A DNA stretch of 64,000 nucleotides, from positions 186,001-250,000 of the forward strand of contig NZ_JPNB01000002.1 in NCBI RefSeq assembly GCF_000732725.1, given 5' to 3'. How positions within the stretch are numbered: the stretch's first letter is position 1; every line of letters begins with the position of its first letter. Shown here piece after piece: positions 31,393-50,403 of this stretch. The notes beneath the pieces are model-generated. The model searched no databases. It saw only the letters and a list, made by a program, of their open reading frames with translations, and was not told the DNA's origin. Source of the DNA: Kineothrix alysoides (GTDB taxonomy: Bacteria; Bacillota; Clostridia; Lachnospirales; Lachnospiraceae). Position numbers and translations under genes: made by a program.

Positions 31393-32379
31393 CTACTCTC
31401 TCATATGAGTCAGCCAGCAGACGGACCGGTACGCCGCCTCAGAGAGAAGCAGAGGCATATGACGGTAAAACCACGAGAACGCTTTTACAGAAAATTTCCT
31501 GCTGTCCGGCAGAAGCGAATCCTCCTTCCACGGGGAGAGCGCTGCCGCTTTAAGATATTCCTCCTTCATCGGATGAATGCAGTTCTCCTCCCACGGCCTT
31601 CCTACCAAACCGGTAGTAAAATGAAGAATCGCCGGATCGCTCTTCGCCTTGTCAAGTTCTTCCTGAGAGTAGAAATTGTCCATGAAATAAATACGCCGTA
31701 TGGTCTTTGCCGAAAAGGAATAAATATTCGACGTCGCATTGAAGCCTGGCTTTACTGCCAGCTTCCGCGCTCTGCATACGCCGTTGATGGTGCCTTGATC
31801 GTGATGCGGCACATTACCCTCAAACTTCCGGATGAATGCTATAAAGCGCTGCTCCAGTTCCTCTTTTCTCCAGCCCTCCAGATCTATCAGCAAAATTCCG
31901 GCATTTACATAATACTCGTCCTCATCCAGCCCTATTTTTTTCAGGAAAAAGCTGTCCACCGTATCCCTCACTCCGGCTACCAAATATTCCTCCATATCCG
32001 CATTCCAGAATTCATCTACCTTCCCCCGCACGATAGTGTCGCAGTCCAAATACAACACCCTCGTACAACTCTTTGGCAGAATAGATGCGAGAAACAGCCT
32101 CGCATAGGACGCGACAGATATTTTTCTGGCTCCCATGCGCAGGTCCAGGCCGGATACCGCCTCCTCCATGGAAATGAAGATGATTGTTCTGTCATACTGC
32201 CCGGAAATGGATTCCAGCTTGTTCTTATTTTCCTTTAAAATTCCGCAGTCCAGCACAAAAACTTCTATTTCCTCAAATTCCTCATTCGAGCGAAATAAGG
32301 ACAGCATGGAAATTCCCAGATATTTTGCATAGTTATCATCGGCCGCATATGCGACGCATAATTTTTTTTCATCTGTCAT
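31393..32379 (-). CDS. Family 8 glycosyltransferase
   Basis: The 328-residue protein is a GT8 (retaining, UDP-sugar) transferase: 'LCVAYAADDNYAKYLGISMLSL' at the start, the metal-binding DCD motif in 'RVLYLDCDTIVRG', 'YYVNAGILLIDLEGWR' and 'HHDQGTINGV'. Members include LgtC-type galactosyl- and glucosyltransferases. It is the last gene of the long run that starts at pelD. The sugar added is unknown. Confidence 0.88.
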   Translation of the reverse strand: MTDEKKLCVAYAADDNYAKYLGISMLSLFRSNEEFEEIEVFVLDCGILKENKNKLESISGQYDRTIIFISMEEAVSGLDLRMGARKISVASYARLFLASILPKSCTRVLYLDCDTIVRGKVDEFWNADMEEYLVAGVRDTVDSFFLKKIGLDEDEYYVNAGILLIDLEGWRKEELEQRFIAFIRKFEGNVPHHDQGTINGVCRARKLAVKPGFNATSNIYSFSAKTIRRIYFMDNFYSQEELDKAKSDPAILHFTTGLVGRPWEENCIHPMKEEYLKAAALSPWKEDSLLPDSRKFSVKAFSWFYRHMPLLLSEAAYRSVCWLTHMRE

Positions 32380-32412
32380 ATTTTTTGTTTCCTTCCCATG
32401 TTTCGCCCATTT

Positions 32413-34743
32413 TTACCACCCGTTCGTCTCTATCTCATCCGTATAATCCGACAAATAATCTACCTGCAGGTCATAAGGACTGTAAGGATTCTGTTTCATG
32501 ATATAAGCGACATAAATATCATCCTCGTAATACACCTTGAAGTTGCGGGGATATATCTGTTTAAATTTCAGCGCCCAGTAATATGCCTGAGACTCTATCG
32601 TCGCCCTTTCGAAATAATAATCCTGTGTATTGGCGAAATATACGAAGTCCATCGCTGCATATTTCAAATCGACGTTTACCGGCCCGTAAAAGTAGTCCTG
32701 CAAGACCTTTTTTTCTATGAAGAAGAAAACATACTCCGTAGGGAAGGTAAATGCCTCCTGCTTCCCATTTACCATGTTGATAAACTCTGAAAGCTGGGTA
32801 TGCCGGCCGTAATCCAACACATCATAATATTCGTCCGTGGGCGATACGATGGTAAAGGTATTTTTTTCATAGGACTTCTTTATATTTCTAAGCAGATATT
32901 CCGACTCGTTATAATACGCCTGGTTGATCTCGAAAAAGGAATGGTACCAGCCCAAGGTAATGATCATATAAGTCGTCCCTATGCAGACCGCTGCCGAAAT
33001 CACATTTAAAACGGCCTGATAATACTTATTCTTCCAGCCCCCCAAGACACGAAAAGCAAAATCTACCGGGAGCATATAAATGAATCCGATGAAGGGTTCC
33101 GCAAAAGTAGAGGCTCTCGCTGCCGCTATCAGCTCCATCAGCCCTAATTGCTGAGCTGCTCCCATTGTACAGAGGATAATCATGTTAATAATCATCGCCA
33201 TGTAATCGTGTCCATAGCATCTCGTCTTCTTACGCAGCATGAAGAGCACTGCGCAGACAGCTCCAGACAGCATGCAAAGGAACATCAGCCGAATTGCAGC
33301 ATAACCGAACATGGCAAGAATACCGAAATTTATCAGCGCATTGGAATAAAACCGGAGAATTTCAATCGGTGTCATGGAGGAGTAATCTACCTCCACCTTT
33401 TGCGTTTCCTCCTCTGCCTCCTGATCGGCGTCCAAGGAGCCTCCTATATCGCCCCTATCAAGCGCTTGTGCCAGCTCCGATTGGTAATCGGGATCGCTGC
33501 CCACCCATTCCTCTCCTGTCATAACGCTGGTAGCCCAAGCCATGGATTCCTGAAACGGGATTCCTTTTGCCAGACAAGCCCCCATGGGAAGCACTGCGAT
33601 GAACGCTCCCATGATACCGCAGAACAATAAGGGAATAAAATACTGCTTTTTAAATATCTTCGGAATATAGGCGATACCTATCGCCGCCACGAGGAAGATT
33701 GCAGCAATTGCCGTATAAAAATGATATGCAATGACCAGACCTATGCAGAGCATTAAGAGAATCTCCTCAGAGCGGATATATCTTCGATTGATATAGCAGC
33801 CCGCACGGAATACTCTGCGAAAACGGGAATCTCCTTCAATTACGAACTTTTTTCTATCTCCGTGCAAATACCTGATCATGAAATAAGCGATTCCTACTAC
33901 CGCATACATCCCTGCCTCCTGCGGAAGGGAAGCTGCGTAGCGGCCCTGATTCAGCATCAAGCTGATAATCACGACTACTGTAACCGGAGTGTATTTCCCA
34001 TAGAAAATTTCCTTCGCCAGAATAAATAATCCGATGAAGAGCAGAACCGTCTGATAGGCTCCTGCATAGAGCAGTATCTCACGCAGGTTCAGGCCAAACA
34101 GCACCCGTATGATGTATGTCATGGCATGCATTCCGAAGGGATAGATTCCGTCAGAAAACAAATTGCCCTGTTCCAGCTCATAAATCCAAGACTGGTGTAC
34201 CGGTATGTCGGAGAACTGATAGCAATGATACCGCATAACGTTGTAAGTCAAAAACCATATATTATATACGATCAATCCTGCCATAAGGAGAATTTCCAGC
34301 CAGTGCGTCCGCATATAGCGCCAAATCCTCCAGCCGCCTGCCGTTCTTATAAACGTCTTCCACCATCCGGCAGCTTCACGCAGAAGATAGCTGACCAACC
34401 TGTCGTTCCTGTATGCTTCCCAGAAAGCGTCGGACCATCCCTTAAGACGGCGGAAAAGCTTTTTATCCGAAAAGTTCCAGAGAATCAGAAGATAAATAAC
34501 GATATTGCAGCCGATTACCGTTCCTCTGCTGCATATATCCAAAAAACCAAGAAGGAGTACGAGATTAATCTGAAGGCTGGCCTGCGTAATCACGCAGAAC
34601 CAGAAACGGTACGCATAGCTTTTGTTCTTAAGATGATTTTTCCATACGAAAAGCGGAATCAGGAAATCACGAGCCGCACAGCTTAGCAAAACCATTATCA
34701 TAGACGATATATAAGCATTAGTATCGACGATCACCTTCTGCAT
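32413..34743 (-). CDS. Large multi-spanning membrane protein, probable GT-C-like glycan enzyme
   Basis: About 776 residues with at least ten predicted membrane helices and a C-terminal soluble part of about 170 residues ('TIVSPTDEYYDVLDYGRH...'). The segment 'SDIPVHQSWIYELEQGNLFSDGIYPFGMHAMTYI' in an early extracellular loop resembles DUF6541-type/GT-C transferases, which use lipid-linked sugars; no catalytic acidic pair can be proven. The start is uncertain: an ATG at 34743 lies very close to GGAGGGG, and a GTG at 34734 has better spacing. Sequence upstream to 34794 belongs to a palindromic element. It sits between the flippase and the GT8. Confidence 0.6.
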   Translation of the reverse strand: MQKVIVDTNAYISSMIMVLLSCAARDFLIPLFVWKNHLKNKSYAYRFWFCVITQASLQINLVLLLGFLDICSRGTVIGCNIVIYLLILWNFSDKKLFRRLKGWSDAFWEAYRNDRLVSYLLREAAGWWKTFIRTAGGWRIWRYMRTHWLEILLMAGLIVYNIWFLTYNVMRYHCYQFSDIPVHQSWIYELEQGNLFSDGIYPFGMHAMTYIIRVLFGLNLREILLYAGAYQTVLLFIGLFILAKEIFYGKYTPVTVVVIISLMLNQGRYAASLPQEAGMYAVVGIAYFMIRYLHGDRKKFVIEGDSRFRRVFRAGCYINRRYIRSEEILLMLCIGLVIAYHFYTAIAAIFLVAAIGIAYIPKIFKKQYFIPLLFCGIMGAFIAVLPMGACLAKGIPFQESMAWATSVMTGEEWVGSDPDYQSELAQALDRGDIGGSLDADQEAEEETQKVEVDYSSMTPIEILRFYSNALINFGILAMFGYAAIRLMFLCMLSGAVCAVLFMLRKKTRCYGHDYMAMIINMIILCTMGAAQQLGLMELIAAARASTFAEPFIGFIYMLPVDFAFRVLGGWKNKYYQAVLNVISAAVCIGTTYMIITLGWYHSFFEINQAYYNESEYLLRNIKKSYEKNTFTIVSPTDEYYDVLDYGRHTQLSEFINMVNGKQEAFTFPTEYVFFFIEKKVLQDYFYGPVNVDLKYAAMDFVYFANTQDYYFERATIESQAYYWALKFKQIYPRNFKVYYEDDIYVAYIMKQNPYSPYDLQVDYLSDYTDEIETNGW

Positions 34744-34764
34744 CCCCTCCTTTATTATCAATTC

Positions 34765-34795
34765 CTTATTATTCAGCCGATGGCTTTCTGACAAC
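34765..34795. repeat. Short palindromic intergenic element, diverged copy
   Basis: CTTATTATTCAGCC / GAT / GGCTTTCTGACAAC fits the same arm pattern as the copy at 26962 with more mismatches. It lies between the flippase stop and the next gene. Confidence 0.55.
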
Positions 34796-34805
34796 CGGCT
34801 ATGCC

Positions 34806-36251
34806 CTATGCTTTCAGGCTATAGATCATATCCTTCACACTCCGGTACTCTTTGCTTATAAATATCACATAGATGCCGCAGCCAAGCAGGTATACCGCGC
34901 CTCCCGCAAGAATCTGCATGGGAAGCAGCAGAAATGGATTAATATTCAGTCCGCACATGAAATAAGTCACCGCAAACTCCAGCCCCCCGCAGACCATAAA
35001 GGGCAAAAGCATCTTAACGAGCTGACCCAGCCGGTAGACGTCCTTAATATAGTGCATCTGATAAACACATACCAACACTTCCGCACACAGGGTGCCTATT
35101 ACCGCACCCGAAGCGCCAAAGGACGGAATCAGCAGAAGGTTAAGAACAATATCCGTAACCGCTCCCAGCGTTACCGAACGGATATAAATATTTTCCCGCT
35201 TAAACGGAATCAAATATTGAGTCTGCACCATCTCCGCCAAGCTCATCGGAATCATGACCATAGCAAGCTCCATCGTCAGCACGATTGCCGGCACATACTC
35301 TTCTCCGAAAAACCACGGAATGAATACCGGAGAGACTCCGGCGATTCCGAAGCACAGTGCACAACTCACAAAGCTGTTAAACCGAATGGCATTCCTCATC
35401 TTCCGCATGCCCTCTTCAATCCGCTCGTTCGCCACCAGATTGGAAATTCTCGGAAGCATTACGGTATCCAGAGCGGACATTATTCCCTTGGGCAGATTAA
35501 TGATATTCTCGGCATAAGTATAAAATGCTACAATTGCTGTACTCTTCGTCATCACGCCCAGCATGATTTTATCCATCCAATGATAGCTGCTTAGTGCCAG
35601 CAATGGAACAAACAGCTTTAAATTCGGCACGATATGGCAGGTGATATCCTCTTTTTTAAGGCTCACCCATTTTATCTGCCGGTACAAATAAGGAACGAGC
35701 AGGAGCTGCTCTAACAAAAAGCAGGCACTCATCACACATGTATAAATCCATAAATCCTTTTCCGAATGTACGAATATGAAAACGCCGATGATAATGAGCG
35801 TTCTGGAAATCAGGCTCCGAATCATCGTGATGCGAAACCGCTCCATGCCATAAAAGAACCAGCTAACGTCAAAGAGTATGGAGCACACATACATAAGCTG
35901 CATCCAATATACGACGCTGTCCGCTTTAAAAACCGTCACGATGAGAAGGATGAAAAGGAGAATGGAAATGATAGAGGTAACCGCCTGCATGGCGTAGATT
36001 CCCCAAAACACTTTGCTCCTCTTCTCTATATCATCCCTGCAGGATGCGATGCTGCGATTCCCGTAATTATCCAATCCCAGCTTGCCGAACATAATAAAAT
36101 AGCAGGCTACCGTACTGGAAAAGGCATAAAGTCCCACCTGTCCCGCCCCCAGCACACGAGCCACATAGGGAGTGACAATCAACGGCAGAATACAGATGGA
36201 CAGCCGGTATATTACATTGTATATATAATTTTTCTTCACTTGTGAACCCAT
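34806..36251 (-). CDS. Polysaccharide flippase (Wzx/MVF family)
   Basis: The 481-residue protein has about 14 membrane segments, beginning 'IYNVIYRLSICILPLIVTPYVARVLGAGQVGLYAFSSTV', which is the family's N-terminal pattern. Such proteins move undecaprenyl-linked oligosaccharide units across the membrane. The ATG at 36251 is eight bases from AAAGGA. Its presence beside a PelG transporter shows that two different export routes are coded in one gene run. Confidence 0.9.
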   Translation of the reverse strand: MGSQVKKNYIYNVIYRLSICILPLIVTPYVARVLGAGQVGLYAFSSTVACYFIMFGKLGLDNYGNRSIASCRDDIEKRSKVFWGIYAMQAVTSIISILLFILLIVTVFKADSVVYWMQLMYVCSILFDVSWFFYGMERFRITMIRSLISRTLIIIGVFIFVHSEKDLWIYTCVMSACFLLEQLLLVPYLYRQIKWVSLKKEDITCHIVPNLKLFVPLLALSSYHWMDKIMLGVMTKSTAIVAFYTYAENIINLPKGIMSALDTVMLPRISNLVANERIEEGMRKMRNAIRFNSFVSCALCFGIAGVSPVFIPWFFGEEYVPAIVLTMELAMVMIPMSLAEMVQTQYLIPFKRENIYIRSVTLGAVTDIVLNLLLIPSFGASGAVIGTLCAEVLVCVYQMHYIKDVYRLGQLVKMLLPFMVCGGLEFAVTYFMCGLNINPFLLLPMQILAGGAVYLLGCGIYVIFISKEYRSVKDMIYSLKA

Positions 36252-36263
36252 TGATAACATCCT

Positions 36264-38216
36264 TTAGCCGGCAGAAGCAGCCTCATTCCCTTCGATTTCG
36301 GGAATCCGCACCTGCGTATGCCTGTCGAAGGCCGTAGGCGAGATAGAGGTATCTCCTGACATTATAATTGCATTAGTAAGCGAGGTACATTTCGCAAAAG
36401 CCTGGTGATTAATGGAAAGCACCTTCTTAGGTATCTTGACGAGCTTTAAGCTTTGGCAGCCATAAAAAGTCCGTATAGGAATCCGCTCGATTTGGTTCGG
36501 AAACAGAAAATAATCCAGCGACTCACAGTGCATGAACGCACACTTTCCTATGCTTTTCAGCGCATCGATCTGTGGAATGGCCACCGTCTCCAACTCCCTG
36601 CAATAGGCGAAGACATAGCTTCCCACCGCTTTTACCCTTCCGGTCAGAACCACATTCTGCAGTCCTAAGCAGCCTAGAAAAACACCATTTTCTATCGTCT
36701 CCAATATGCTGTTCACACCGAATTCCACCGACAGCAAGCCGGTACATCCCAAAAACGCATAGCGGGGAAGCTTGCTTATTGCGGTGGGATATAAATGGTT
36801 CGCCCTTTCCTCCCCGCGATGCAGGTAGGTAAAGGATAGCTGCCTTAGAGAACAGCATTCGGCAAAGGCATATCTGCCGATTTGCACAATATTGGAAGGC
36901 AGGCTCATCGTTTTTAACAGGCGGCAGCCCGTAAAGGCATAGTTTCCTATTTTACCCAGACGACTTCCTTCTTTAAAGGTGACATGGCGCAGATTTTGGC
37001 ATTGATAAAAAGCGTAGGACTGAATTTCCAGTACTGTATTAGGTATTTCCACGCTGACCAGGTTGTCACAGCCATAGAACATGCCTTTCTTAATTACTGT
37101 CACATATTCGGGAATGACGATACTTTTAAGCTTTTTATTGAAGCAAAAATCGAGAGACTTCTTCTCATTATATTCACGGGCGGAGGAAAACTCAAGCGGT
37201 ATTTCTTTATCCGCCTCCGGCTCATAAGGAACCTTCAGCGCTTTTACCTTTTCCAGCTTCCCTTTTTGAATCATGCGGATATCCCGGTTCAAACGAAGCT
37301 TCCCGAACAGCATAGAGACAGCGCGCCTATTCCATTTCACCGTATAATAAATATTCTTTGCTGTCTTTTTGAAAAACATCCAGACCGAGCGTGCCGGCGA
37401 CTTGACAAAGTACATATAAATATAGATGAAATAGTTCAGCCACATATAATTAATTCTGGCAAGAAAGAGCATACGCCCATAAAAATTCTGAGCCATACGC
37501 CTATTTACCACAAAAATCTCCGTATATTTATACAGAATCTTTTGTCCATCCGTAAAATCATTCCAGTCGTAGTCTTCGTCGACAGACGTAATCCGGCATT
37601 CACACAAGGAATCGGCAGGAAACAGAACCTTTTTCCTGCGGCTTAGCCGAAGCAGCATATCTCCGTCACAAAAGTTGACAAACTGCTCATCAAAGCCACC
37701 CTCTTCCAGCACCACCGCTCTTCTGTAAATGACCTGCCCCGGACTCCTCGCAGGATTGTTCATCAGCCATAGCGAGGAATCCTCCTCCGGATGTTCCAGC
37801 AAAGGCTCTACTTCCAGTTCCGCTCCCCGCTCATCCATGAGTATCCCGCCGCTGCAGGAGGCCGCCGCATCCGTAGACGCTTCCAGCCCGGCTATCTGCA
37901 ATGCCGCCTTACCCTGAAGCCATATATCATTGCTGCTCAAGTAGGCGATATACTCTCCCTCTGCACTCCTAAGCATCTGATTGCGTATAGCGGCAATCGA
38001 AAGAGAGGGGTCCAGCCGTACATACTCTACCTCCGGAAAATCAATCAAATCCTCCTGCATCCCCAGACTGTACAAACTGTCGGGCTCATTGGCATCCACC
38101 ACCAGCACCTTAATAGGTGCATAGGTCTGGCGGAGGACACTTTGCAACGCCCGGACAAAGCTTAACGAAGTATTTCTTTTTGCGATTAAGATAACATTCA
38201 GTAATAAATCCGACAT
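36264..38216 (-). CDS. GT2 glycosyltransferase fused to BspA-type leucine-rich repeats
   Basis: Residues 1 to about 230 are a family 2 glycosyltransferase ('NVILIAKRNTSLSFVRALQSVLRQTY', 'SIAAIRNQMLRSAEGEYIAYLSSNDIW', 'SPGQVIYRRAVVLEEGGFDEQF'). The usual DD/DxD acidic pair appears as SND. Residues 230-350 hold hydrophobic and basic helices. From about 355 to 635 there are LRR_5 (BspA/Treponema type) repeats with the pattern 'L-x-x-I-x-I-P-x-x-V-x-x-I-x-x-x-A-F-x-x-C'. Such repeats normally bind proteins or surfaces; their attachment to a cytosolic-type transferase is unusual. TTTTCC and weak AAAGGA precede the ATG. Confidence 0.85.
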   Translation of the reverse strand: MSDLLLNVILIAKRNTSLSFVRALQSVLRQTYAPIKVLVVDANEPDSLYSLGMQEDLIDFPEVEYVRLDPSLSIAAIRNQMLRSAEGEYIAYLSSNDIWLQGKAALQIAGLEASTDAAASCSGGILMDERGAELEVEPLLEHPEEDSSLWLMNNPARSPGQVIYRRAVVLEEGGFDEQFVNFCDGDMLLRLSRRKKVLFPADSLCECRITSVDEDYDWNDFTDGQKILYKYTEIFVVNRRMAQNFYGRMLFLARINYMWLNYFIYIYMYFVKSPARSVWMFFKKTAKNIYYTVKWNRRAVSMLFGKLRLNRDIRMIQKGKLEKVKALKVPYEPEADKEIPLEFSSAREYNEKKSLDFCFNKKLKSIVIPEYVTVIKKGMFYGCDNLVSVEIPNTVLEIQSYAFYQCQNLRHVTFKEGSRLGKIGNYAFTGCRLLKTMSLPSNIVQIGRYAFAECCSLRQLSFTYLHRGEERANHLYPTAISKLPRYAFLGCTGLLSVEFGVNSILETIENGVFLGCLGLQNVVLTGRVKAVGSYVFAYCRELETVAIPQIDALKSIGKCAFMHCESLDYFLFPNQIERIPIRTFYGCQSLKLVKIPKKVLSINHQAFAKCTSLTNAIIMSGDTSISPTAFDRHTQVRIPEIEGNEAASAG

Positions 38217-38260
38217 AACTTTTCCTTTACTTTTACACGGGAACTAAACTCCCTAAAAAC

Positions 38261-38393
38261 GTTACTGTTCACTCCGTTCTCAGCAACACATGATTTCTGC
38301 ATTTAAATTCGCTCCGCGAAGCAGAAATCATCTCTTAAATCACGTTCTTACGTAGCTTAACAGCAAGTGTTAGGCTACTGTATGAACAGTAAC
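38261..38393 (-). repeat. Dispersed intergenic repeat, copy 2, bounded by 11-bp inverted ends
   Basis: GTTACTGTTCA (38261-38271) and its exact complement TGAACAGTAAC (38383-38393) bound a 133-bp segment. Its first 95 bases, read in reverse, match the copy at 19877-19970. It fills the gap between the DUF4832-type gene and the GT2-LRR gene and has no reading frame of its own. The inverted ends are the same sequence as the arms of the 31-bp palindromes, so this looks like a small non-autonomous (MITE-like) element. Confidence 0.8.
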
Positions 38394-39761
38394 CTAAAAA
38401 CCCACAGTAAAATTACCCAGCTTATAATTCCCCATATGATCCGGCGTCGAGAAAGTATTGGCTATTTGAATCACCCTATCCATCCGCGGGTCATAAATTC
38501 CCATACATAAAATATAGCTGCTCCGGTTAAACTGCTCCGGAGGAATCAACGCTTCCAGGCTCACAAGCTCTTGCGGCATCCACATGCGAGTGTCCGTATC
38601 TACCTCGTATTCGTATATCCCGGAAAACGAAGCGTCACGAATCACGAACTTCACTTCGTATTTATGATAGCAGGGAGCGAAGCCCCGATTGACTATCTTA
38701 ACCGCAGTCTTAAGCCTTCCGCTTTTATCCGGAACAAGGGACAGGGACGCTTCTTCCAGAGAAAACCGGTATCCCAAATGTGCTTCTATGTATTCGAAGG
38801 CCGTTTTCTCCCTCCACGGAGCCTCACTTACCCCTGACTTAGAAGACTTCCATTTATTCAGTACCTTTTCATCATAATCACTGTGAAGGTAAGAAATCCT
38901 CATTTTCCTAAGCCCCTCCAGCGCCGGTCCCACATCGTTGCCCGGACCTTCGTTAATGACCTCGCCTCCATTGGAGACATACCGGCACAGCTGGTTCTGG
39001 AATTCCAGTTCATCTTTTCGTACCCACTTTTCGCTGTAGGACTTGGAATCTTTCATTCCCACATTTCCATAGGTTCCAAAATCTGTGTCCGAAGCCATGA
39101 TGCCGTCGTTAAATAAGGAAAACCGCGCCTTCTGAATATCAGTGAACGCGTTAACCCATTCTAACGGCTGGTAGGTCTTGAAAAGAGTCCGCCAAAAGTT
39201 GGGACATCTCAGCGCTATCTGAGTGCTTTCCCCCGAACATTCATATAACTGTCTGGCCAGCCTGGCAATGTGACGTTCGCTTAAGTAACGGGAATTGTGC
39301 ATCTCTCCCCAGCTTCCGATAAAGAGACCTTGAAGAATGTAAATATGCTTCGTATATTCCTTCAGCAGCGGAGCAAGCTGGCTCATATGGTTCATGATAA
39401 CAGAAATGTCCTTCGGCTCGCTCAATATCCCCTTGCCCTCCCAATCGTATAGGAAGCGCACCACCATTTGCTTTTCCAGCTTCGCAAAACGTTCAAAAAT
39501 CATGCGCACTACTTCTAAAGCTTCCCCCGTCAGCTTAGTCTCATTAAAGTGCAGAAGGTTGATCTCCACAAGGCAAAGCTGCCTCGAAGGCTCCACTCGC
39601 ACCTCTTCGATAGGAATTCCCTCTACAGCCTCTATTTTGCTGTCAGCAAAAAAACGGTAGATGGAATAAAATCCACAGTATGGATTGTGCAAAGCCTCCG
39701 CCTTCTCCGTTCGGGGAAGCGGAATCCATTTCAATTTCGTAACCTTATCCTTGTATTCCAT
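38394..39761 (-). CDS. DUF4874/DUF4832-type protein of the polysaccharide locus
   Basis: The 455-residue protein begins with 'NPYCGFYSIYRFF', the start pattern of DUF4874, goes through a TIM-barrel-like region ('VVRFLYDWEGKG', 'YILQGLFIGSWGEMHNSRYLS') and ends in a beta-rich DUF4832-like part. Families of this kind occur in carbohydrate loci and look like glycoside hydrolases without proven activity. The conserved acidic residue in 'GSWGEMH' is a candidate catalytic position. There is no clear signal peptide. It is followed downstream by the dispersed repeat. Confidence 0.65.
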   Translation of the reverse strand: MEYKDKVTKLKWIPLPRTEKAEALHNPYCGFYSIYRFFADSKIEAVEGIPIEEVRVEPSRQLCLVEINLLHFNETKLTGEALEVVRMIFERFAKLEKQMVVRFLYDWEGKGILSEPKDISVIMNHMSQLAPLLKEYTKHIYILQGLFIGSWGEMHNSRYLSERHIARLARQLYECSGESTQIALRCPNFWRTLFKTYQPLEWVNAFTDIQKARFSLFNDGIMASDTDFGTYGNVGMKDSKSYSEKWVRKDELEFQNQLCRYVSNGGEVINEGPGNDVGPALEGLRKMRISYLHSDYDEKVLNKWKSSKSGVSEAPWREKTAFEYIEAHLGYRFSLEEASLSLVPDKSGRLKTAVKIVNRGFAPCYHKYEVKFVIRDASFSGIYEYEVDTDTRMWMPQELVSLEALIPPEQFNRSSYILCMGIYDPRMDRVIQIANTFSTPDHMGNYKLGNFTVGF

Positions 39762-39801
39762 AAGAAAATTCCCTTCTGCATCATCTTACTTCTACATCTT
39801 C

Positions 39802-41809: not shown

Positions 41810-42288
41810 TCTGTCTGCTCCGTGCCGGAATTCGTCGGTTCTTCAGAATTCATCGGCTCTACAGAACTCTTTTGTTCCCCAATGTCCACATCGGCCCTGG
41901 CGGTTCCGTGCAGATGTACCAAATCCACGTCCCTTTCTATCAGCACCTTCAAATGACTGTTCTCCTCATTCAGCAGAGAAACCTGCATCGCCAGCTCCTG
42001 CACTCTGGAGGACAGCTCCGCGATAGAATTATAGCAGTTGAATATCCCATAAGCCGCCAGAACGACAGCCAGTGCAAATATAATAGAAGGCGGATATTCC
42101 ACCGCAAACAAATCGGAAATAAAATAAACCAGCCGGGGAATCAGCCCGAATAAAATGATGATAACTCCCCCGCTAATCCAGAACAAACTCTGCTTCTCCG
42201 TCATCTTACGGACGATACTGGCCCTGCGTGCCATATAAATCAGAACAATACCCGTAAAACATACAAAAATTCGAAGTGTAATAGACAT
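41806..42288 (-). CDS. DUF2304 small membrane protein
   Basis: The 160-residue protein has three membrane helices and the charged link 'RRASIVRKMTEKQSLFWISGG' typical of DUF2304, then a coiled-coil segment ('ISELSSRVQELAMQVSLLNEENSHL'-like, starting near residue 90) and a low-complexity Glu/Ser/Thr tail. These proteins usually partner with a DPM1-like transferase, here the GT2 at 39802. The ATG at 42288 has AAGGAGGG upstream; earlier in-frame codons overlap pelG. Confidence 0.85.
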   Translation of the reverse strand: MSITLRIFVCFTGIVLIYMARRASIVRKMTEKQSLFWISGGVIIILFGLIPRLVYFISDLFAVEYPPSIIFALAVVLAAYGIFNCYNSIAELSSRVQELAMQVSLLNEENSHLKVLIERDVDLVHLHGTARADVDIGEQKSSVEPMNSEEPTNSGTEQTE

Positions 42289-42302
42289 ATGTGCCCTCCT
42301 TG

Positions 42303-43778
42303 TCATTGTGCCTTTGTTTTTTTCAAATCCGTTTTTCCTCTATATATATTATAAACATCTTCTTCCGGCATATCCGAAGCCACCTGCTTCAATACCGTTC
42401 CCCTGCAGAAAATGTGATTATCCAAGTTTTTCTCCACGTAACGAAGTCTTAAATAAGAAAAAGTAAACGCCGCAAATGCTGCTGCCGTAAATCCCGCACC
42501 ATACCAGATGGCCGGCAGTCCGGCGGAAAATATGGAGCCTATAAGCGCCACTCCCGCAAATATAACACCGTTCAGCATCGCTCCGGTCAGATCATCGAAG
42601 TAATACAAAAATAAAAGCTCCGAATACATCAAAAAGGAAATAAAATATCCCACTGCAAGCTGGGGATATATTTCCATGACCATTCCCGAGAATCCCATAA
42701 AGGGGAGTACCACAATCGCAACCAAATAGATAATAACTGACACGATGAACTGAATATGCACAAGGGAAAGAAGCTGCGAGGAAAGCCCCCGGAACATCCG
42801 CTTTTTCGCCTTCTGAATGCTGTCCAGCTTGCCGCCTATAACGGCCTCCGTATAATCCTTATATCTTTCATGAAAGTGCATCTCCACTCTTGAGATGAAC
42901 AGCACGCTGGCAGAAATATTAGTGAACATAGCAAGACAGGATGCCATGTCATAGGGTTGGTTGCTGACATAGGTATTACGGACAACCATATGCCACGGTT
43001 GAGCCCAGAATACGAAATTATGAATAAACAGCCCAAGCGTATACAGGAAATTAGAAGCAATCAGCTTCCAGTATATTCTGTAATAACGAAGCACTGCTTT
43101 ATAGTTTCGGCTGTTAGCAGGAAAATATTGCAGCACATTGGCAAGCTCCAGGGATGCAATCAGCAAAAAGCCTATGGTCAGCGAAAGCAGCATGCTATAC
43201 GTAATAGAAAATCCCCATCCGAAACGAAAAATAACGGACAGAACAAAGCTAACACCCATACCGCATATAAAATATAAGGATATTTTCTTATACTGCTTTA
43301 AAATCGAGTTATACACCATCGTCGAAAAGGTCAGCGAAAGTCCCAAAAATCCCATATAAGTAGTAAACACATAGTATACAGGCACACCGCCCACTATGGT
43401 TTCATAAATATAGAAGGGAATCGCCACCATAGAAGAAAAGGTCAGGTTTGTGATTGTTCCCACATAAATGCAGGGTCTGATGTCCTCATACCGCTGCTCA
43501 TAGATCCTATCCGTCTGGAACTTCGACAGCACCGAGTTAAAAGGGGCAGAGGTCAAAAGGGAAAAGATAAATATGTAGAGAATACTGCTGGAAAATGTCT
43601 CCCTTTCCAGATACCCTACCGTATCGAAGCCCAGAACCTTATACATTGCGAACAAACAGCCGATGACCACCAGCATAGGTGCAATCGTATATACGAAGCT
43701 AAAGCCTATCCCATAAAGTGCAGCTGTTACCGACCGCTTATCGAATATTTTATTTAACTGAATGCCAAGACCAGCCAT
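42303..43778 (-). CDS. pelG: PelG-like Pel polysaccharide transporter
   Basis: The 491-residue protein has about 12 membrane helices and the PelG start 'MAGLGIQLNKIFDKRSVTAALYGIGFSFVYTIAPMLVVIG', followed by 'TSAPFNSVLSKFQTDRIYEQRYEDI'. PelG is an MOP-superfamily protein that, with PelD and PelE, forms the inner-membrane synthase/export complex for Pel. It follows pelF by 23 bases. Confidence 0.92.
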   Translation of the reverse strand: MAGLGIQLNKIFDKRSVTAALYGIGFSFVYTIAPMLVVIGCLFAMYKVLGFDTVGYLERETFSSSILYIFIFSLLTSAPFNSVLSKFQTDRIYEQRYEDIRPCIYVGTITNLTFSSMVAIPFYIYETIVGGVPVYYVFTTYMGFLGLSLTFSTMVYNSILKQYKKISLYFICGMGVSFVLSVIFRFGWGFSITYSMLLSLTIGFLLIASLELANVLQYFPANSRNYKAVLRYYRIYWKLIASNFLYTLGLFIHNFVFWAQPWHMVVRNTYVSNQPYDMASCLAMFTNISASVLFISRVEMHFHERYKDYTEAVIGGKLDSIQKAKKRMFRGLSSQLLSLVHIQFIVSVIIYLVAIVVLPFMGFSGMVMEIYPQLAVGYFISFLMYSELLFLYYFDDLTGAMLNGVIFAGVALIGSIFSAGLPAIWYGAGFTAAAFAAFTFSYLRLRYVEKNLDNHIFCRGTVLKQVASDMPEEDVYNIYRGKTDLKKTKAQ

Positions 43779-43801
43779 ACGCTACGTTTTCCTTTCTGCC
43801 A

Positions 43802-45286
43802 TTATCTTTCTCTTTTTCCCGAAGGGCTCTCTGCAATCGACGGGGGGACGAATATCTCCTCCGTATATTCCACCGAACCAAGCGTTCGATATATCTTACG
43901 GTAAGCTTCCTCCATATAGACGCTTTTATATTTGCGCATCAGGCGTTTATAACCATTCTCGCCCATCCGGTGGGCCATATCAGGATGCCATGCCAGCCTT
44001 AAAATTGCACGAGTGATTTCGGAAATATTCATAACAGGTACCACAATACCTGCCTCTCCGAAGGAATCATCTTCCCCGTAAACCAAGCCGTAGCAGTTGC
44101 CTACGTTAGTGGCGATGCAAGGCTTCTTCGCCGCAAAGCCCTCCAGAATCGTAAGCGGCTGTCCCTCGCTGATGCTGGTAAGAATCGTCATATCCATCCG
44201 CCCTATATAATCCGTCGTCTGAATGCTTCCTGTAAATTCGATATTTTCCGCCTGCAAAGCCTTTACAAGATCTTTGCAGTCCTGTGCATATTCCGGATTC
44301 TCATCGTCCGGTCCCATAATCCAAAGCTTTAGCAGCGGTTCCTTTTCATGTGCGTAATAGAATGCGTTAATCATCGTCTTTACATCCTTAATCGGTGTCA
44401 CACGAAGAATTGCACCGACATTGATATAAGGGTCCTCCGGGTCCTTCCCGGGAACTGCCGAAAACCGCTCCGCATCGATGCCGTTGGGCGTCACGATAGC
44501 CTTTCCTGCAGGGCATCCCAGCTCTATCTGCAAGGTGCGCGCATGCTCAAAAAGCGAAGTCACCAAATCCGCATAGTAATACGCGCATTGAGACATTTTA
44601 CGAAACTGCTCGATCCAAATCGTCTTATAAACTCCCTGCACCCATTTTGCCTTAATAATTTCCTCTTCCCTCTCCCTTGTGTAAATACCGTGCTCGCTGA
44701 CGAGCAGCTTGGAATCGGGATACATGGACAATGCCTTGCTGCCGATGATTCCCGCATAGCCTGTCGCCACGCAATGGTAAATATCAGCCTTGGGCGGTTT
44801 ACACTTTAACGCGAAAAAAAGCGGCAGGTAAATAGAGCGCAATGTCCATAAAAAGTCAGAAAAGGTTATATCCGAAAATTTCATGGAATAATATTCCTTC
44901 GCAATCTCTAAAAATTCCGGGCTCATCAATATACGGTCAATGGAAATGTTCTTTCTGTTAAACATAGAAAACACTCTTATCCAGTCCACATCCTCGCCGA
45001 TGACCAGGCCGCGCAGGGCCTCAGTCTCCTCACTGCTTAGATGGAACCGCTTCTTCCCCGCCTTACTGTGTCCCACCCAGTCCACATCCTGAAGATACAC
45101 CTCGTGGATTTCCGTCAGATTATCCGGAAGCTGGTAGGCAAATTTCCCGCTTACACTGCGGTCTGCAACAATTGTAATCAATTTAAATTCTATATTCGGA
45201 AATAACCGAATGATGCTATGTATCCAACTGGATACACCGCCGACAACATAAGGATAACAGCCCTCTGCTATCATGCACACAATCAT
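43802..45286 (-). CDS. pelF: PelF-like Pel polymerase (GT4)
   Basis: The 494-residue enzyme begins 'MIVCMIAEGCYPYVVGGVSSWIHSIIRLFP', the PelF signature, and contains 'GVHASGY'-region equivalents 'CVATGYAGIIGSKALSM', 'VTPNGIDAERF', 'VGAILRVTPIKDVKTMINAF' and 'TSISEGQPLTILEGFAAKKPCIATN'. In Pseudomonas PelF is a cytosolic UDP-sugar-dependent transferase that makes the GalNAc/GlcNAc polymer. The ATG at 45286 has AGGAGG seven bases upstream. Confidence 0.94.
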   Translation of the reverse strand: MIVCMIAEGCYPYVVGGVSSWIHSIIRLFPNIEFKLITIVADRSVSGKFAYQLPDNLTEIHEVYLQDVDWVGHSKAGKKRFHLSSEETEALRGLVIGEDVDWIRVFSMFNRKNISIDRILMSPEFLEIAKEYYSMKFSDITFSDFLWTLRSIYLPLFFALKCKPPKADIYHCVATGYAGIIGSKALSMYPDSKLLVSEHGIYTREREEEIIKAKWVQGVYKTIWIEQFRKMSQCAYYYADLVTSLFEHARTLQIELGCPAGKAIVTPNGIDAERFSAVPGKDPEDPYINVGAILRVTPIKDVKTMINAFYYAHEKEPLLKLWIMGPDDENPEYAQDCKDLVKALQAENIEFTGSIQTTDYIGRMDMTILTSISEGQPLTILEGFAAKKPCIATNVGNCYGLVYGEDDSFGEAGIVVPVMNISEITRAILRLAWHPDMAHRMGENGYKRLMRKYKSVYMEEAYRKIYRTLGSVEYTEEIFVPPSIAESPSGKRER

Positions 45287-45306
45287 ATCCAATCCTCCTG
45301 CCAGTC

Positions 45307-47133
45307 TTACTGCGGGTTACTGGGAACTGTCTTGTTATTTTTCGGCTTTTCCAAGACATTTTCCTCCGTCAGATAAATCCTTACCTCCGGTGCCAGGGCC
45401 CTGATCAGCCAGGCCGTATCGGAAAGCTTCTCCACATCAGCATTCTCTGCGGATTCCACGCTGTTATTATAGGTACAAAGCACAAAATAAGCCTCTTCTT
45501 CGAAATTCTTCATCCGAACCGTTATGCCCTTTTCTTCCCTTTCATAAATATAATCCAGCGCCATAAAACGTCTGATACGCTTTTCCATTTCATATACGGA
45601 CACCATGTCCAGCTTGGAAAAATCTTTGAAATACGTATCTCCCTTAGACCATTCCAGGCTTAGATTGTTCCATTCGTCCTCATCGCTTTCGGGGTAAAAT
45701 ACCCGTCCGATATCTACTTCCATATTGCACATTCCGAGGGCATTTTCCACACAGATCATACGCAGATCGTCCATCGTTTCATGCTGGTAGCCGTCCTGAT
45801 TGAATTTTACGGAGAGGACTCCGTCATCCAAAAAGTCTATCAGGGAATCCCCCTCTTCGTATCCCGACATAATCAGCCTTATATCTCTCAAGTGTTCATA
45901 GTCCGCATTCCCGGCTATCTCCTCGGGCTTAAAGTCCGCCGCGTACAAAGCCGTAAGGCCGTATTCCGGTAAGTTTTCCTCCAGGAACTGCTCATTATCT
46001 TCTTGTACTTTGGCAAGGCCCGTATCCGATACATGGTCAAAGGATAGGCCCATGTCTCCCGGAAGCTTACTTATTTCCCTCAGGTAAAAGCTAAGGTAAT
46101 CTGCACGGTCCTTGTCCTGCGCAGCATAATCCAGTTTCGGGGAGGCAAAAAAGCTATAGGAGCTGCCATAATTTTTCAATATCTGGACGATGCCTGACCA
46201 AAGCAGATCTCTGGCTACTGCCTCTGAACTGCGGCTGTACAGCTTCTGCATCGTCTCATCGTTCTCTCCGGAAAAATACGGATAATTCAGCACAGAAATC
46301 GTCTGCGCATTGACAATAGGATAGAGAAAGACGTCTCCCTCCTGTGCCATAAAGCCGGTAAGGATGCCTAGCAAGGGCACTCCGTTAAAAACATCGCTAT
46401 TCACTGCGAAGACGAAAGACTTTTCAGTCGTAGTCTTCCAAAGAAGAGGCGGCAGCTCTTTATCTTCAATTCCAAGCTCCTTCTGATTGTCCAGGATACC
46501 TACCGCATACACTTCATAGCCCGACGCCAGAGAATAATACGGCACATCGATTCGCGTATCGTCCTCCTCACCGAAGTAGTCGCCCTCCTTATACACCCTC
46601 TCCTTACTTAACATAAAATCAGAGAATATCTTGATTCCATCCGCTTCCATCTCCTCTTCCACTCCCGCTTTGATACCGAAAAAAGCGGCGAACTGCGGGT
46701 CTGCAACGATTGCACTGTAATCCGGAAGCTTTGTGAAAATCATAGTCTTTCCCAGATTCGCATAGGAGTAAAGAATGTCGCTGTCCTCTGCCGTCAGTTT
46801 ATAATCGCTAAATAACAGCAAATCATAAGTATCAATTTCCTCCTCCGGTACCCACGAGGTATAAAGCTGATAGGAGTACTTATTGTATATACACCACTCT
46901 TCAAGAAGCTTGGCCGCAGCAGTTTCCCCATCCGATGAAAGGATAGCCGCCCTTTTCTTCTGTTCCGCAGAAAAGACCTCCCTATCCTCATAACTTACCT
47001 CTGCCTTGTCCTCTGCCCTGATATTTTCTGACGCATCCGACAATACATGGGACGAAACACCGGCAAACATGAACATGAAAAAGACCATAAACAGCAATAT
47101 AAAAATTACAAAATAATTTCCTTTTGAAATCAT
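45307..47133 (-). CDS. DUF2194-type membrane-anchored protein in the pelA (deacetylase) position
   Basis: The 608-residue protein has one N-terminal membrane helix (about residues 7-27) and a large extracellular part: a flavodoxin-like half ('AILSSDGETAAAKLLEEWC', 'DTYDLLLFSDYKL') followed by a deacetylase/glycosidase-like region ('FVFAVNSDVFNGVPLLGILTGFMA', 'GLSFDHVSDTG'). Gram-positive pel loci carry a PelA limited to a deacetylase domain in this position; DUF2194 proteins are found there. The metal-binding Asp-His-His set of CE4-like deacetylases is not clearly visible, so activity is uncertain. Its start overlaps the pelE stop by four bases. Confidence 0.75.
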   Translation of the reverse strand: MISKGNYFVIFILLFMVFFMFMFAGVSSHVLSDASENIRAEDKAEVSYEDREVFSAEQKKRAAILSSDGETAAAKLLEEWCIYNKYSYQLYTSWVPEEEIDTYDLLLFSDYKLTAEDSDILYSYANLGKTMIFTKLPDYSAIVADPQFAAFFGIKAGVEEEMEADGIKIFSDFMLSKERVYKEGDYFGEEDDTRIDVPYYSLASGYEVYAVGILDNQKELGIEDKELPPLLWKTTTEKSFVFAVNSDVFNGVPLLGILTGFMAQEGDVFLYPIVNAQTISVLNYPYFSGENDETMQKLYSRSSEAVARDLLWSGIVQILKNYGSSYSFFASPKLDYAAQDKDRADYLSFYLREISKLPGDMGLSFDHVSDTGLAKVQEDNEQFLEENLPEYGLTALYAADFKPEEIAGNADYEHLRDIRLIMSGYEEGDSLIDFLDDGVLSVKFNQDGYQHETMDDLRMICVENALGMCNMEVDIGRVFYPESDEDEWNNLSLEWSKGDTYFKDFSKLDMVSVYEMEKRIRRFMALDYIYEREEKGITVRMKNFEEEAYFVLCTYNNSVESAENADVEKLSDTAWLIRALAPEVRIYLTEENVLEKPKNNKTVPSNPQ

Positions 47134-48059: not shown

Positions 48060-48100
48060 ATAAAAGCAACCATTTCCTTCCCCTATTTTATAGTTCTATT

Positions 48101-48128
48101 GTTATTTAGCCTGCGTCGTCATAGTACC
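48101..48128. repeat. Short palindromic intergenic element, diverged copy (pelD/pelE junction)
   Basis: GTTATTTAGCC / TGC / GTCGTCATAGTACC keeps the centre and one arm of the 31-bp family and lies just after the pelD stop. Confidence 0.5.
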
Positions 48129-48144
48129 CCCATATAACCAGAAA

Positions 48145-50322
48145 TTATATCTTTTTCTCCTGATAAGTAGCGATTCCGTTCTCTTCCAGACGTGCCTTTA
48201 CATATGCCGACTCGTTCTTATTCGTGTTGGTCAGGAGCACCCCAATATTGCCGCCCTGTACCATACCCACATAATCCGTTTCGCGCAGCAGCAAGCGGAG
48301 TTTATCGTTAAGCTCCGTAAGCGGCATGCCTTCCGCTTGGATATAGAAAACGCTGGACTGCGCATATCCCTTCTCCCCCGCATTCCGATAAATATCTAAC
48401 ATCGACTCGAAAGCCTCCTGCTGAAGGATACCGGTTCCGGGGAGAAATCTGCGGTATACCAGAGCATCCATATAATCCGCATCGCGCACCACTACAGCGT
48501 ATACGAGGGCACCTACTACCGATAGGAGATTTGCTTGGTACAAGGTCATCTGCTCATAGGGAATATTCCAAAGCAGTACGATGATTCTCATATTACCTTT
48601 ATCGTCAAAAAGTGCGCTTCCCATCATAGGAAGTTCTGTGTCTAACGACCGGTTAATATAAACCTGCTTCTTTATCAGCACGTCAAACATTGCCGCGTAA
48701 TCGGCCATTGCCAACGATTTGCCCAGAGAGCGGGCCTTCTCGCTGGAAGCGGAGGCCAGACGGCAATAGCTCTCGTTGGAAACGAGATAGATAGAAACAT
48801 CCTTCGTCTCCATAATCTCCGATAAAGTATCGAGAGCGGAAAACAGCACCTCGCCCATCTTGGCCCGCTCAAGCCTCGAAGTGATTTCGTAAATACGTCC
48901 AACACCTTCCGCACTGCTGATCAACTTTTCTGCAAAATAGTTCTTAAGCTTCGTATTGCTGGAATTAATTACTGTAATATCACTCAGTCTGTCCGCAAGA
49001 AAGTCGATTCTCTCGTTCTTATCCTCCTCCGTCTCGCGGAACTTATCCTTCAGATGTCCCACTGTCAGGCCAACAACGAAAATCTGAGCGGTCCATATGT
49101 AAGTATTGATATCTATTAATAATGAAAATCCGGACGTCGTATACATCTGCCCGAAGCAGTATCCGATTACGCTGAGCAAAGCGGATAAAATCGCCTGCCG
49201 CCTGCCGTGTACCACTGCGAAAAGAAGCACATATAATAAGTAGAAGTTAATCTGTCCGAAATAAATGCTATCTGCTACCCTGTTGTTCAATATATAGACA
49301 GGAAAGAAAAAGACTACAGTCTCCAAAAACGGAACTGCCTTTTTCAGCAGGCGAAGCATCCGGTCCCGAAGTCTCTTGCCCCCATATTGCTCGTCACCAT
49401 GTAAAAAAAGATTCTTATGGCGCTTCATATGAGCGATAATCATAGGAATCATTTCTTCGTACCCGGTCCGCACCTGAAAGGAGAATTCCGAGCAAAATCT
49501 TTCATTGGATAAAATGACCCGCTGGCGCAGGCCTATGGTACGGTCCACGATTTCCACAGGGTGTGAATATTTTTCCCGGATGAGCTCAGCCACCTTGTCC
49601 TCCGTTACTTCCTCCCTGGAAGAAACATGGTAAAGCTTATATTTTCTCTCCGGCGCATCGATTAACAGGTATACCGCTTCCACGCCATCCTTCACATACA
49701 ACGCAGACAGTACCTTCTTCGCGTTCACGTACAATCTGCCGGATACTAACGCCTTCATACACATCTTGGAATAAATATCGGTACAGGATTCTCGATCCAC
49801 CGGAATACCATACATACGGGCAATACGCAGAACAGTTACTTCCATCTGCGTCGTCGCATTAAAGTGCATTGCCAGATTCTCCCCTTGGGAAATCGTCATT
49901 CCCTGAAAGCTATTCGGCGAAGCCGGCATCTCCTCCCTGATATCCACCGCATATTCATCCTCATATACCCTGTCCGAAGACACATAAACAAAATGTCGTA
50001 CACCGAAGGACGCCGCCGCCATGAGGAGATTACTCAGTCCGGCAATATAGTTCAGTGACTCCTCCTGCACGTGGTCGTCCTCCCATCGATAAAGCGGATC
50101 ATAGGCCCCCATGAACAAAATTGCATCCGGACGGCAGCTTGTTATGACCTCTTCCACGCTGGCACTGTCATAAGCAAAGGTATACTGCTCAAATACATGT
50201 GCAGGCTTCACAAGCTTCTGACTATTCGTAAGCGTATAAATATGCCATTTTTCTTTATAGAATTTGTTGATCAATTCCTCCGTAAAGGTTCCGTAGCCAC
50301 CTACGATCAATATGCTACCCAT
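48145..50322 (-). CDS. pelD: PelD-like c-di-GMP receptor with an N-terminal SDR/epimerase domain
   Basis: The 725-residue protein is a fusion. Residues 1 to about 290 form an extended SDR (NAD-dependent epimerase-like) domain: 'ILIVGGYGTFTEELINKFYKE', 'FVYVSSDRVYEDEY'. About 320-430 are four membrane helices. About 450-600 is a GAF-like domain. The end is a degenerate GGDEF domain: the catalytic motif reads QGGNI, but the RETD (680-683) five residues before it keeps the RxxD I-site that binds c-di-GMP in PelD. So it probably senses c-di-GMP without making it. The SDR active site YxxxK is not obvious. The ATG at 50322 has GGGAG 13 bases upstream; a GTG at 50355 is an alternative. Confidence 0.9.
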   Translation of the reverse strand: MGSILIVGGYGTFTEELINKFYKEKWHIYTLTNSQKLVKPAHVFEQYTFAYDSASVEEVITSCRPDAILFMGAYDPLYRWEDDHVQEESLNYIAGLSNLLMAAASFGVRHFVYVSSDRVYEDEYAVDIREEMPASPNSFQGMTISQGENLAMHFNATTQMEVTVLRIARMYGIPVDRESCTDIYSKMCMKALVSGRLYVNAKKVLSALYVKDGVEAVYLLIDAPERKYKLYHVSSREEVTEDKVAELIREKYSHPVEIVDRTIGLRQRVILSNERFCSEFSFQVRTGYEEMIPMIIAHMKRHKNLFLHGDEQYGGKRLRDRMLRLLKKAVPFLETVVFFFPVYILNNRVADSIYFGQINFYLLYVLLFAVVHGRRQAILSALLSVIGYCFGQMYTTSGFSLLIDINTYIWTAQIFVVGLTVGHLKDKFRETEEDKNERIDFLADRLSDITVINSSNTKLKNYFAEKLISSAEGVGRIYEITSRLERAKMGEVLFSALDTLSEIMETKDVSIYLVSNESYCRLASASSEKARSLGKSLAMADYAAMFDVLIKKQVYINRSLDTELPMMGSALFDDKGNMRIIVLLWNIPYEQMTLYQANLLSVVGALVYAVVVRDADYMDALVYRRFLPGTGILQQEAFESMLDIYRNAGEKGYAQSSVFYIQAEGMPLTELNDKLRLLLRETDYVGMVQGGNIGVLLTNTNKNESAYVKARLEENGIATYQEKKI

Positions 50323-50374
50323 ACTATAATTTTTTCTCCCGCTTTTTATGAACACGAATTAAGTCTTGAATATA

Positions 50375-50403
50375 ACTATAATACATCACTTGTACGTATT
50401 CAA
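50375..50403 (-). promoter_or_regulatory. Promoter of the pel gene run
   Basis: TTGAAT (50398-50403), 17 bases, TATAGT (50375-50380) on the minus strand, about 50 bases before the pelD ATG. Confidence 0.65.

Follow-up and report, generated by a model that had tools for sequence, protein, structure and literature searches.

In this work, comparative genomics and structure prediction were applied to a glycan gene cluster of the Lachnospiraceae bacterium Kineothrix alysoides, located in a stretch of 64,000 nucleotides (contig NZ_JPNB01000002.1 of assembly GCF_000732725.1, positions 186,001 to 250,000 of the forward strand; hereafter the window, in whose numbering all coordinates are given). The cluster probably encodes a Pel-type synthase (PelD, PelE, PelF and PelG) in which the de-N-acetylase activity of PelA has been lost and an extracellular glycosylation module is present instead. 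Our best reading of its product is a Pel-type polymer that would respond to cyclic di-GMP (c-di-GMP) and be side-glycosylated instead of deacetylated. Four observations underlie this reading: the content and order of the genes, the loss of the PelA active site, the GT-C-like fold of a predicted protein model, and the strict co-occurrence of the respective gene with one class of pel loci.

The original prediction, an annotation made from the sequence alone, had described 13 co-directional genes, and this order was confirmed: all lie on the minus strand, from 50322 down to 31393, beginning with pelD, a gene in the pelE position, a DUF2194 gene in the pelA position, pelF and pelG, and continuing with genes for a DUF2304 protein, a glycosyltransferase (GT) of the GT4 family, a GT2 enzyme, a DUF4874+DUF4832 protein, a GT2 fused to LRR_5 repeats, a Polysacc_synt (Wzx-type) flippase, a 793-residue polytopic protein and a GT8 enzyme (Table 1). 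The DUF2194, DUF2304, GT4, GT2, DUF4874+DUF4832, GT2+LRR_5, Polysacc_synt and GT8 proteins each score over the Pfam gathering threshold; PelD, PelE and the 793-residue protein were assigned from architecture, position and relatives. Overlaps of 4 bp join pelG to the DUF2304 gene and the latter to the GT4 gene, and the widest gap within the run, between the DUF4832 and GT2-LRR genes, measures 177 bp and contains a small repeat. The first possible start of pelD is a GTG at 50355 and the likelier one an ATG at 50322, not 50403; the GT2 gene starts with an ATG at about 40545, as a longer open reading frame up to 40695 would overlap the GT4 gene.

Two of the synthase genes are readily recognized. 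PelF matches the NCBIfam equivalog NF038011 with 353.1 bits (cut-off 100), and PelG matches the Pfam family PF16933 with 452.5 bits (cut-off 29). The pelE-position protein has no Pfam or NCBIfam match; its position and pairwise relatives fit PelE. Neither a GAF nor a GGDEF domain is matched by Pfam in PelD; an alignment places a retained RETD (RxxD motif) in its degenerate GGDEF-like end. The motif is kept in 13 of 13 family rows of class A (the class of pel loci that includes the window, defined below), in 63 of 65 rows of the alignment of named relatives, the window being counted in both, and in 20 of 21 class B rows. The Tyr/Lys pair that we take to be the usual catalytic motif of SDR domains is absent from the alignment of the PelD SDR domain. 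Because the RxxD motif is kept and the genome has 22 GGDEF matches of its own, control of the locus by c-di-GMP, as originally proposed, is plausible on sequence grounds. A c-di-GMP riboswitch upstream of pelD was not detected (the region 50250-50600 matches no Rfam family, even with E allowed up to 1), and the only Rfam match at gathering scores in the whole window is a ribosomal L10 leader RNA at 15513-15665 on the minus strand.

To place the locus among its relatives, a family set of 397 genomes was used, in which PelG was matched in 72 genomes and over the cut-off in 70. The 72 stretches around over-cut-off PelG matches were compared with the window proteins; a small PelG fragment (G092:C258) and the sub-cut-off matches in G177, G334 and G384 were left out. 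Scores against the window PelG are bimodal, and a split at 200 bits yields two classes of stretches: 42 of class A (261-589 bits), to which the window belongs, and 30 of class B (152 bits or less), which represents the standard type. Class B resembles the published streptococcal and clostridial layout, with pelDEAFG and then two recurrent accessory gene clusters in 23 of 30 stretches, mostly after a third; DUF4832 is often present as well. From the gene order we take the three accessory genes to be CotH, a polyphosphate polymerase and DUF4956. This set also appears in PMC7112168. In class A, by our own reading, pelG is followed by the DUF2304-GT4-GT2-DUF4832 series in 25 of 42 stretches, with other arrangements in the rest. 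The gene cluster of the GT2 occurs in 37 of 42 class A stretches and that of DUF2304 in 27 of 42; the 30 class B stretches have neither of these, nor the gene cluster of the 793-residue protein. The midpoint-rooted PelG tree sets 46 class A rows, together with the loci L078 and L080, against 27 class B rows (supports 0.998 and 1.0), and the node containing class A alone has a low support of 0.278.

A second set, the named loci, comprises the best 80 of 349 confirmed PelG-alignment matches, ranked by how closely they resemble class A PelG. Closest to the window are a Clostridiales metagenome-assembled genome (90% PelG identity), metagenome-assembled genomes of Herbinix and Anaerocolumna, and Clostridium sp. 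KNHs205, with records of Fusicatenibacter, Blautia, Coprococcus and Ruminococcus among the others; their PelG proteins are 57-90% identical to that of the window. The first 12 genes, from pelD to the gene of the 793-residue protein, recur with unchanged order and orientation in 8 of the 80 loci (L101, L104-L108, L111 and L115); GT8 is found in 3 of 80, and many loci end before that point. Among the 54 named loci of at least 18 kb, GT4 is present in 50, GT2 in 48, DUF4832 in 50, GT2-LRR matches in 15 and GT8 in 3. Class A is a widespread lineage, found in about one in ten of the sampled family genomes (40 of 397), and the view of the cluster as an exceptional extension of a standard locus is not supported, a similar case in Roseburia having been remarked upon in 2020 (PMC7112168). 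Two unusual loci were seen in the family set. L026 (G019) combines a class A PelG and the gene of the 793-residue protein with the class B accessory trio and is possibly an evolutionary intermediate; the genome of L014 has a further pel locus, L065 (G107:C48), with the order DUF2194-pelF-pelG-pelD-pelE-GT4-GT8-GT2-GT-C-GT4, the GT-C gene being that of the 793-residue protein discussed below.

Two features set class A apart, and one of them lies in the pelA-position protein. The B. cereus enzyme requires Asp262/263, His350xxxHis354, Arg458 and His488 (PMC13254593). In the alignment most class B rows plainly show the motifs DDFP, HGYNH, PR and HPDD; the window and the other class A rows have lost them, and the place expected for the second histidine is a gap. 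None of the 109 class A rows (100 distinct, some contigs having come via two collections) has a complete Asp-His-His metal triad, against 20 of the 27 rows of class B; the first Asp of MT1, either His of MT2 and the Arg are each kept in 0 of the 109, and an HxxxH occurs somewhere in three of them, never at the aligned site. The rows were obtained from 65 of the 72 family stretches (38 class A, 27 class B), seven having given none for want of a pelF (L030, L079) or of a 300-residue open reading frame in the pelA position (L045, L048, L051, L065, L081); 76 named loci had a DUF2194 match, of which 70, with at least 450 residues, were added together with the window. The window protein thus lacks the metal-binding and catalytic residues of CE26 de-N-acetylases, and no second match to the PelA-type family was found in its genome. 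Judging from these residues it looks dead as a deacetylase, and a reading of its gene as encoding a working PelA is not supported. Since the AlphaFold model is good (predicted local distance difference test, pLDDT, 89.3) and its top Foldseek match is NDST1, the N-deacetylase/N-sulfotransferase of heparan, the predicted DUF2194 scaffold seems to be kept with its catalytic site lost; many lower Foldseek matches cover only part of the chain, and a PDB search gave no solved sequence relative (best E 0.49).

Seven class B rows lack the triad (L054, L056, L057, L060, L077, L078 and L080). In the first five, PelA-type genes stand in tandem, one copy keeping HxYNH and the pelF-adjacent copy having lost the motif, which suggests that the dead copy serves a purpose other than catalysis.

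The 793-residue protein has no Pfam match, and a sequence search of the PDB gave weak matches only (best E 0.046). Its AlphaFold model, built on a 39-sequence alignment, has a pLDDT of 84.1 and a predicted template modelling score of 0.86. The Foldseek matches at ranks 1-18 are without exception GT-C enzymes, alone or within complexes (DPY19, OST/PglB, ALG12, ALG9, AftD, AftB, Pmt4 and ArnT), with a best E of 2.4e-5 and 11 matches at E up to 0.001. We take these proteins to share the GT-C fold; they draw sugars from polyprenyl phosphates or diphosphates. The modelled protein looks like a GT-C glycosyltransferase, an assignment at the level of the superfamily only. Near-invariant residues in its family are D196, H200, H223, R285, P291, E293 and H358, with Asp196 and His200 just past a predicted helix. 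One of the 39 relatives matches DUF6541 in Pfam at 3e-4; other weak single-member matches, Wzy_C at 0.022 included, look like noise and were rejected.

The other feature of class A is the GT-C gene, which follows its pel genes closely. The search alignment was built from pel-linked copies and the search took in whole genomes, and the gene was found in 43 of 397: in all 40 genomes that carry a class A pelG, in none of the 30 with class B and in 3 of 327 others (Fisher p 8.6e-52, which is indicative only, the genomes being related and class A being defined by PelG similarity to the window). Among the three others, G027 has the gene in a locus with pelD, pelE, a truncated pelF and no pelG match, the contig of G001 ends inside a pel locus carrying it, and in G275 only a fragment is present, on a 3.1 kb contig devoid of pel genes. 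Within class A stretches the gene is present in 38 of 42, after pelG or between pelE and the pelA-position gene, and among the named loci in 65 of 80, including 54 of 54 of those of at least 18 kb. A sample of 391 genomes from the taxonomic class gave six with the gene: three belong to the same family, a fourth (G576) carries DUF2304, GT2 and GT-C genes in a class A locus, and the last two have weaker matches. Because the gene order is shared by relatives with PelG proteins 57-90% identical and the co-occurrence is strict, the association of the GT-C gene with pel is more than chance. The original prediction had named the occurrence of the distal genes without pel genes in relatives as an argument against a common system; for the 793-residue gene this was examined and did not count against it, as 40 of its 43 genomes have a class A pelG.

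Several of the other distal genes may fit a lipid-linked sugar route. The DUF2304 protein has about three transmembrane helices by a simple hydropathy estimate. The best NCBIfam match of the GT2 is PpgS (NF058614; 6e-26, 91 bits), the mycobacterial polyprenyl-P-GalNAc synthase; its solved relatives include a dolichyl-phosphate-mannose synthase and the sll0501 (GtrB) enzyme (PDB 5mlz, 5ekp), and its QxDxDGQH motif is invariant in 60 of 60 rows. In the GacIJKL system, which adds the side chain of the group A carbohydrate to a polysaccharide backbone, GacI makes a polyprenyl-phosphate sugar aided by GacJ, a three-helix membrane protein of DUF2304 type, a Wzx protein is thought to flip the product, and GacL adds the sugar to the polymer outside (PMC8035078, PMC8327497). 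By analogy, the window has candidates for all four parts of such a multi-component transmembrane glycosylation system, GT2, DUF2304, Wzx and GT-C; in contrast to GacIJKL, they are attached to a Pel-type synthase and not to a rhamnan pathway, and the GT-C protein has no Pfam match. The decoration through a lipid-phosphate-sugar route proposed in the original prediction therefore gains support from a part-for-part parallel. In the DUF4832 protein two glutamates (E153 and E267 in the window) are invariant in 105 of 105 rows; a DUF4832-bearing protein of Streptococcus intermedius disperses Pel aggregates (PMC12345266), which speaks for a Pel-like backbone. The window copy has no signal or transmembrane segment by hydropathy, and a role as a secreted Pel hydrolase was rejected. 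Many class A loci (L120, L124, L126 and others of the 80) encode two DUF4832 paralogues, with and without an N-terminal hydrophobic segment, both of which keep the two glutamates. The GT2-LRR protein has full-length relatives in nine named loci, and the repeats are odd on a seemingly cytoplasmic glycosyltransferase.

Compared with the Gram-positive pelDEADAFG operon of B. cereus and S. intermedius (PMC7112168, PMC13254593, PMC12345266), the window has the same pelD-E-(A)-F-G order, an SDR-fused PelD and a DUF4832 accessory gene, and no pelB or pelC was recognized in the cluster. It differs in its PelA-position protein, which lacks the CE26 catalytic residues required in B. cereus, in the added DUF2304, GT4, GT2, Wzx and GT-C genes, and in the usual CotH/polyphosphate polymerase/DUF4956 set, which was not found in the cluster by Pfam. 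In Roseburia, pel genes were reported in 2020 among capsule- or teichoic-like genes of a larger cluster, whose function was left open (PMC7112168). Like the window, these clusters hold pel genes among other glycosyltransferase genes, and they are probably of the same lineage as class A; the excerpted account, unlike ours, mentions neither a dead PelA nor a GT-C protein. A lost PelA active site or a GT-C protein in pel loci was likewise not described among the open-access literature matches listed, which is not proof of absence.

Because the synthase is kept and the PelA activity lost, class A loci should have either a different product or another way of export, and decoration by glycosylation is the natural candidate. 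In the proposed scheme, PelD would sense c-di-GMP, PelF would polymerize an amino-sugar chain and PelG would export it, with the dead PelA homologue remaining at PelG to serve as a scaffold for binding or guiding. The GT2 together with DUF2304 would make a polyprenyl-phosphate sugar, the GT4, GT8 and GT2-LRR enzymes would build, extend or vary the side unit, Wzx would flip the lipid-linked sugar, and the GT-C protein would transfer the side sugar to the polymer emerging from PelG. We infer here each biochemical step, the sugars and Pel as the acceptor.

Several observations weigh against side-glycosylation in place of deacetylation. The Foldseek template modelling scores of the GT-C model are low (0.27-0.40 by query at ranks 1-18), and its family has a conserved DxxxH loop motif, whereas the usual motif of such enzymes is a DxD, or a modified form of it, in an extracellular loop (PMC8035078). 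GT-C homologues also occur away from pel in G019 and G025. The GT2 falls below the PpgS equivalog cut-off of 370 bits, so its sugar cannot be read from this match. Among the 54 long named loci, relatives of the window Wzx are found in eight, other flippase families not having been searched for, and DUF2304 in only 38. The loss in PelA is not quite uniform: of the 109 class A rows, 14 retain the second Asp of MT1 and two the MT5 His. Seven stand-alone NodB-type deacetylases (PF01522) are encoded elsewhere in the genome and could act in trans. Finally, L078 and L080 have a dead PelA and no GT-C match in their genomes, one of which is 59% complete, and they suggest that the loss of deacetylation and the gain of GT-C are separable.

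Although its linkage to pel ties the GT-C module to the Pel machinery, it does not reveal the acceptor. Instead of decorating the body of the polymer, the module might link a sugar tag or the Pel-type chain itself to another molecule, such as a membrane lipid, the cell wall or one of the Pel complex proteins. GT-C acceptors are diverse, the Foldseek matches include protein and lipid glycosyltransferases, and in many relatives the gene lies between pelE and the pelA-position gene; yet the closest functional parallel, GacIJKL, modifies a polysaccharide backbone, and the cluster has no recognizable anchor-forming gene among its Pfam matches; we consider this attachment rather unlikely. It is highly improbable that the locus is a standard Pel locus deacetylated in trans, with the extra genes peripheral: the genome does have its seven PF01522 matches, but all are outside the pel cluster, with about 59 kb to the closest one on the contig, and the GT-C gene is linked as strictly as the pel genes themselves.

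The other branch of the original prediction, a second polymer, which could be a Wzx-dependent one of capsule or teichoic-like type that is made by the distal genes and shares only its regulation with Pel, has fared less well than decoration, and we judge it improbable. The Wzx, GT4, GT2-LRR, GT8 and glf genes do look capsule-like, and a capsule-type cluster is encoded nearby at 52379-63784; capsule or teichoic functions were also suggested for the Roseburia clusters (PMC7112168). A Wzx/Wzy capsule cluster should hold further components, and no initiating phosphoglycosyltransferase or Wzy is among the Pfam matches of the 15 genes at 29688-50355, three of which (PelE, the 793-residue and the 112-residue proteins) have no Pfam match, nor is the LCP family among those of the cluster. 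The GT-C gene, moreover, tracks class A pel in 40 of 40 genomes and is often embedded among pel genes, and GT4 and GT2 genes adjoin pel genes in class A loci without a Wzx or GT8 match.

Table 1. Genes of the pel cluster of K. alysoides and two adjoining genes, with the evidence for each assignment
Feature	Coordinates	Strand	Evidence and remarks
pelD	48145..50322	-	degenerate SDR/epimerase N-terminus, DUF4118 membrane part, degenerate GGDEF-like C-terminus with RETD; Pfam, NCBIfam, alignment
pelE-position gene, 309 residues	47130..48059	-	no Pfam family; both pel classes have relatives in this position
pelA-position DUF2194 protein	45307..47133	-	N-terminal transmembrane helix, de-N-acetylase-type fold, active site lost; Pfam, alignments, AlphaFold, Foldseek
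pelF, polymerizing GT4 with DUF3492	43802..45292	-	NF038011, 353 bits; Pfam
pelG, membrane translocase-type partner	42303..43778	-	PF16933, 452.5 bits
DUF2304 small membrane protein, GacJ-like	41806..42306	-	PF10066, 66.3 bits; hydropathy; GacJ parallel
GT4 glycosyltransferase	40577..41809	-	Pfam; in 71/80 named loci
GT2, polyprenyl-phosphate-sugar-synthase-like (PpgS / DPMS / GtrB relatives)	39802..40545	-	NCBIfam, PDB, alignment
DUF4874+DUF4832 glycoside-hydrolase-like protein, without export signal	38394..39761	-	Pfam; conserved E153 and E267
GT2 fused to BspA-type LRR_5 repeats	36264..38216	-	Pfam; no transmembrane helix by hydropathy
Wzx-type flippase (Polysacc_synt)	34806..36260	-	PF01943, 103 bits
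Putative GT-C glycosyltransferase, polytopic, 793 residues	32413..34794	-	alignment, AlphaFold, Foldseek, co-occurrence
GT8 glycosyltransferase, variable cluster end	31393..32379	-	PF01501, 130 bits; in 3/80 named loci
112-residue protein, helix-turn-helix-like by eye	30847..31185	-	no Pfam match; 207 bp past GT8; membership uncertain
UDP-galactopyranose mutase (glf)	29688..30815	-	PF03275, 275 bits; possible sugar-donor supply; membership uncertain

A terminator between pelG and the DUF2304 gene, which the original prediction had named as evidence against a single unit, was not found between the genes, which overlap and leave no gap; within the DUF2304 gene, the minus strand shows three weak terminator-like matches, at which a transcript may end. 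In the region 29500-49400, 23 terminator-like sites were counted against 16.6 (standard deviation 3.6) in shuffled sequences, and 31 promoter-like sites against 34.5. The 177-bp gap contains, at 38261-38352, one copy of a repeat of about 92 bp that recurs with 90% identity at 19878-19969, and inverted repeats are seen in the gap by eye. Beyond the distal end, glf has an 88% identical copy in the closest relative, whose coordinate would fit the same place if the contig is the pel contig; in the other seven genomes searched its identity is 35-55% or it is absent. Upstream of pelD, a second glycan cluster at 52379-63784 on the minus strand encodes a zinc alcohol dehydrogenase, an IspD-like cytidylyltransferase, a ribulose-phosphate 3-epimerase, DUF4422, GT2 and WbsX proteins and FkbM methyltransferases; by its make-up we take it to be of CDP-ribitol or capsule type. 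Elsewhere in the window, a 438-residue protein (20073-21389, plus strand) matches the FliD C-terminal family over its first third only.

De-N-acetylation is essential to Pel in the two best-studied models: a catalytic mutant of Pseudomonas aeruginosa PelA makes no extracellular Pel (PMC10269871), and PelADA activity is needed for the Pel biofilm of B. cereus (PMC13254593). Against this background the class A lineage would be surprising, and in a lineage with these residues lost, Pel-type export must work in another way. At somewhat less than even confidence, we propose that a large Pel lineage of the Lachnospiraceae and their neighbours has swapped de-N-acetylation for polyprenyl-phosphate-dependent extracellular glycosylation, which would yield a neutral, branched relative of Pel under c-di-GMP control with the dead PelA serving as a scaffold for export. 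The question raised in 2020, whether such clusters work or make something unrelated, becomes one that can be asked gene by gene, and its answer bears on the surface polysaccharide displayed by common gut anaerobes.

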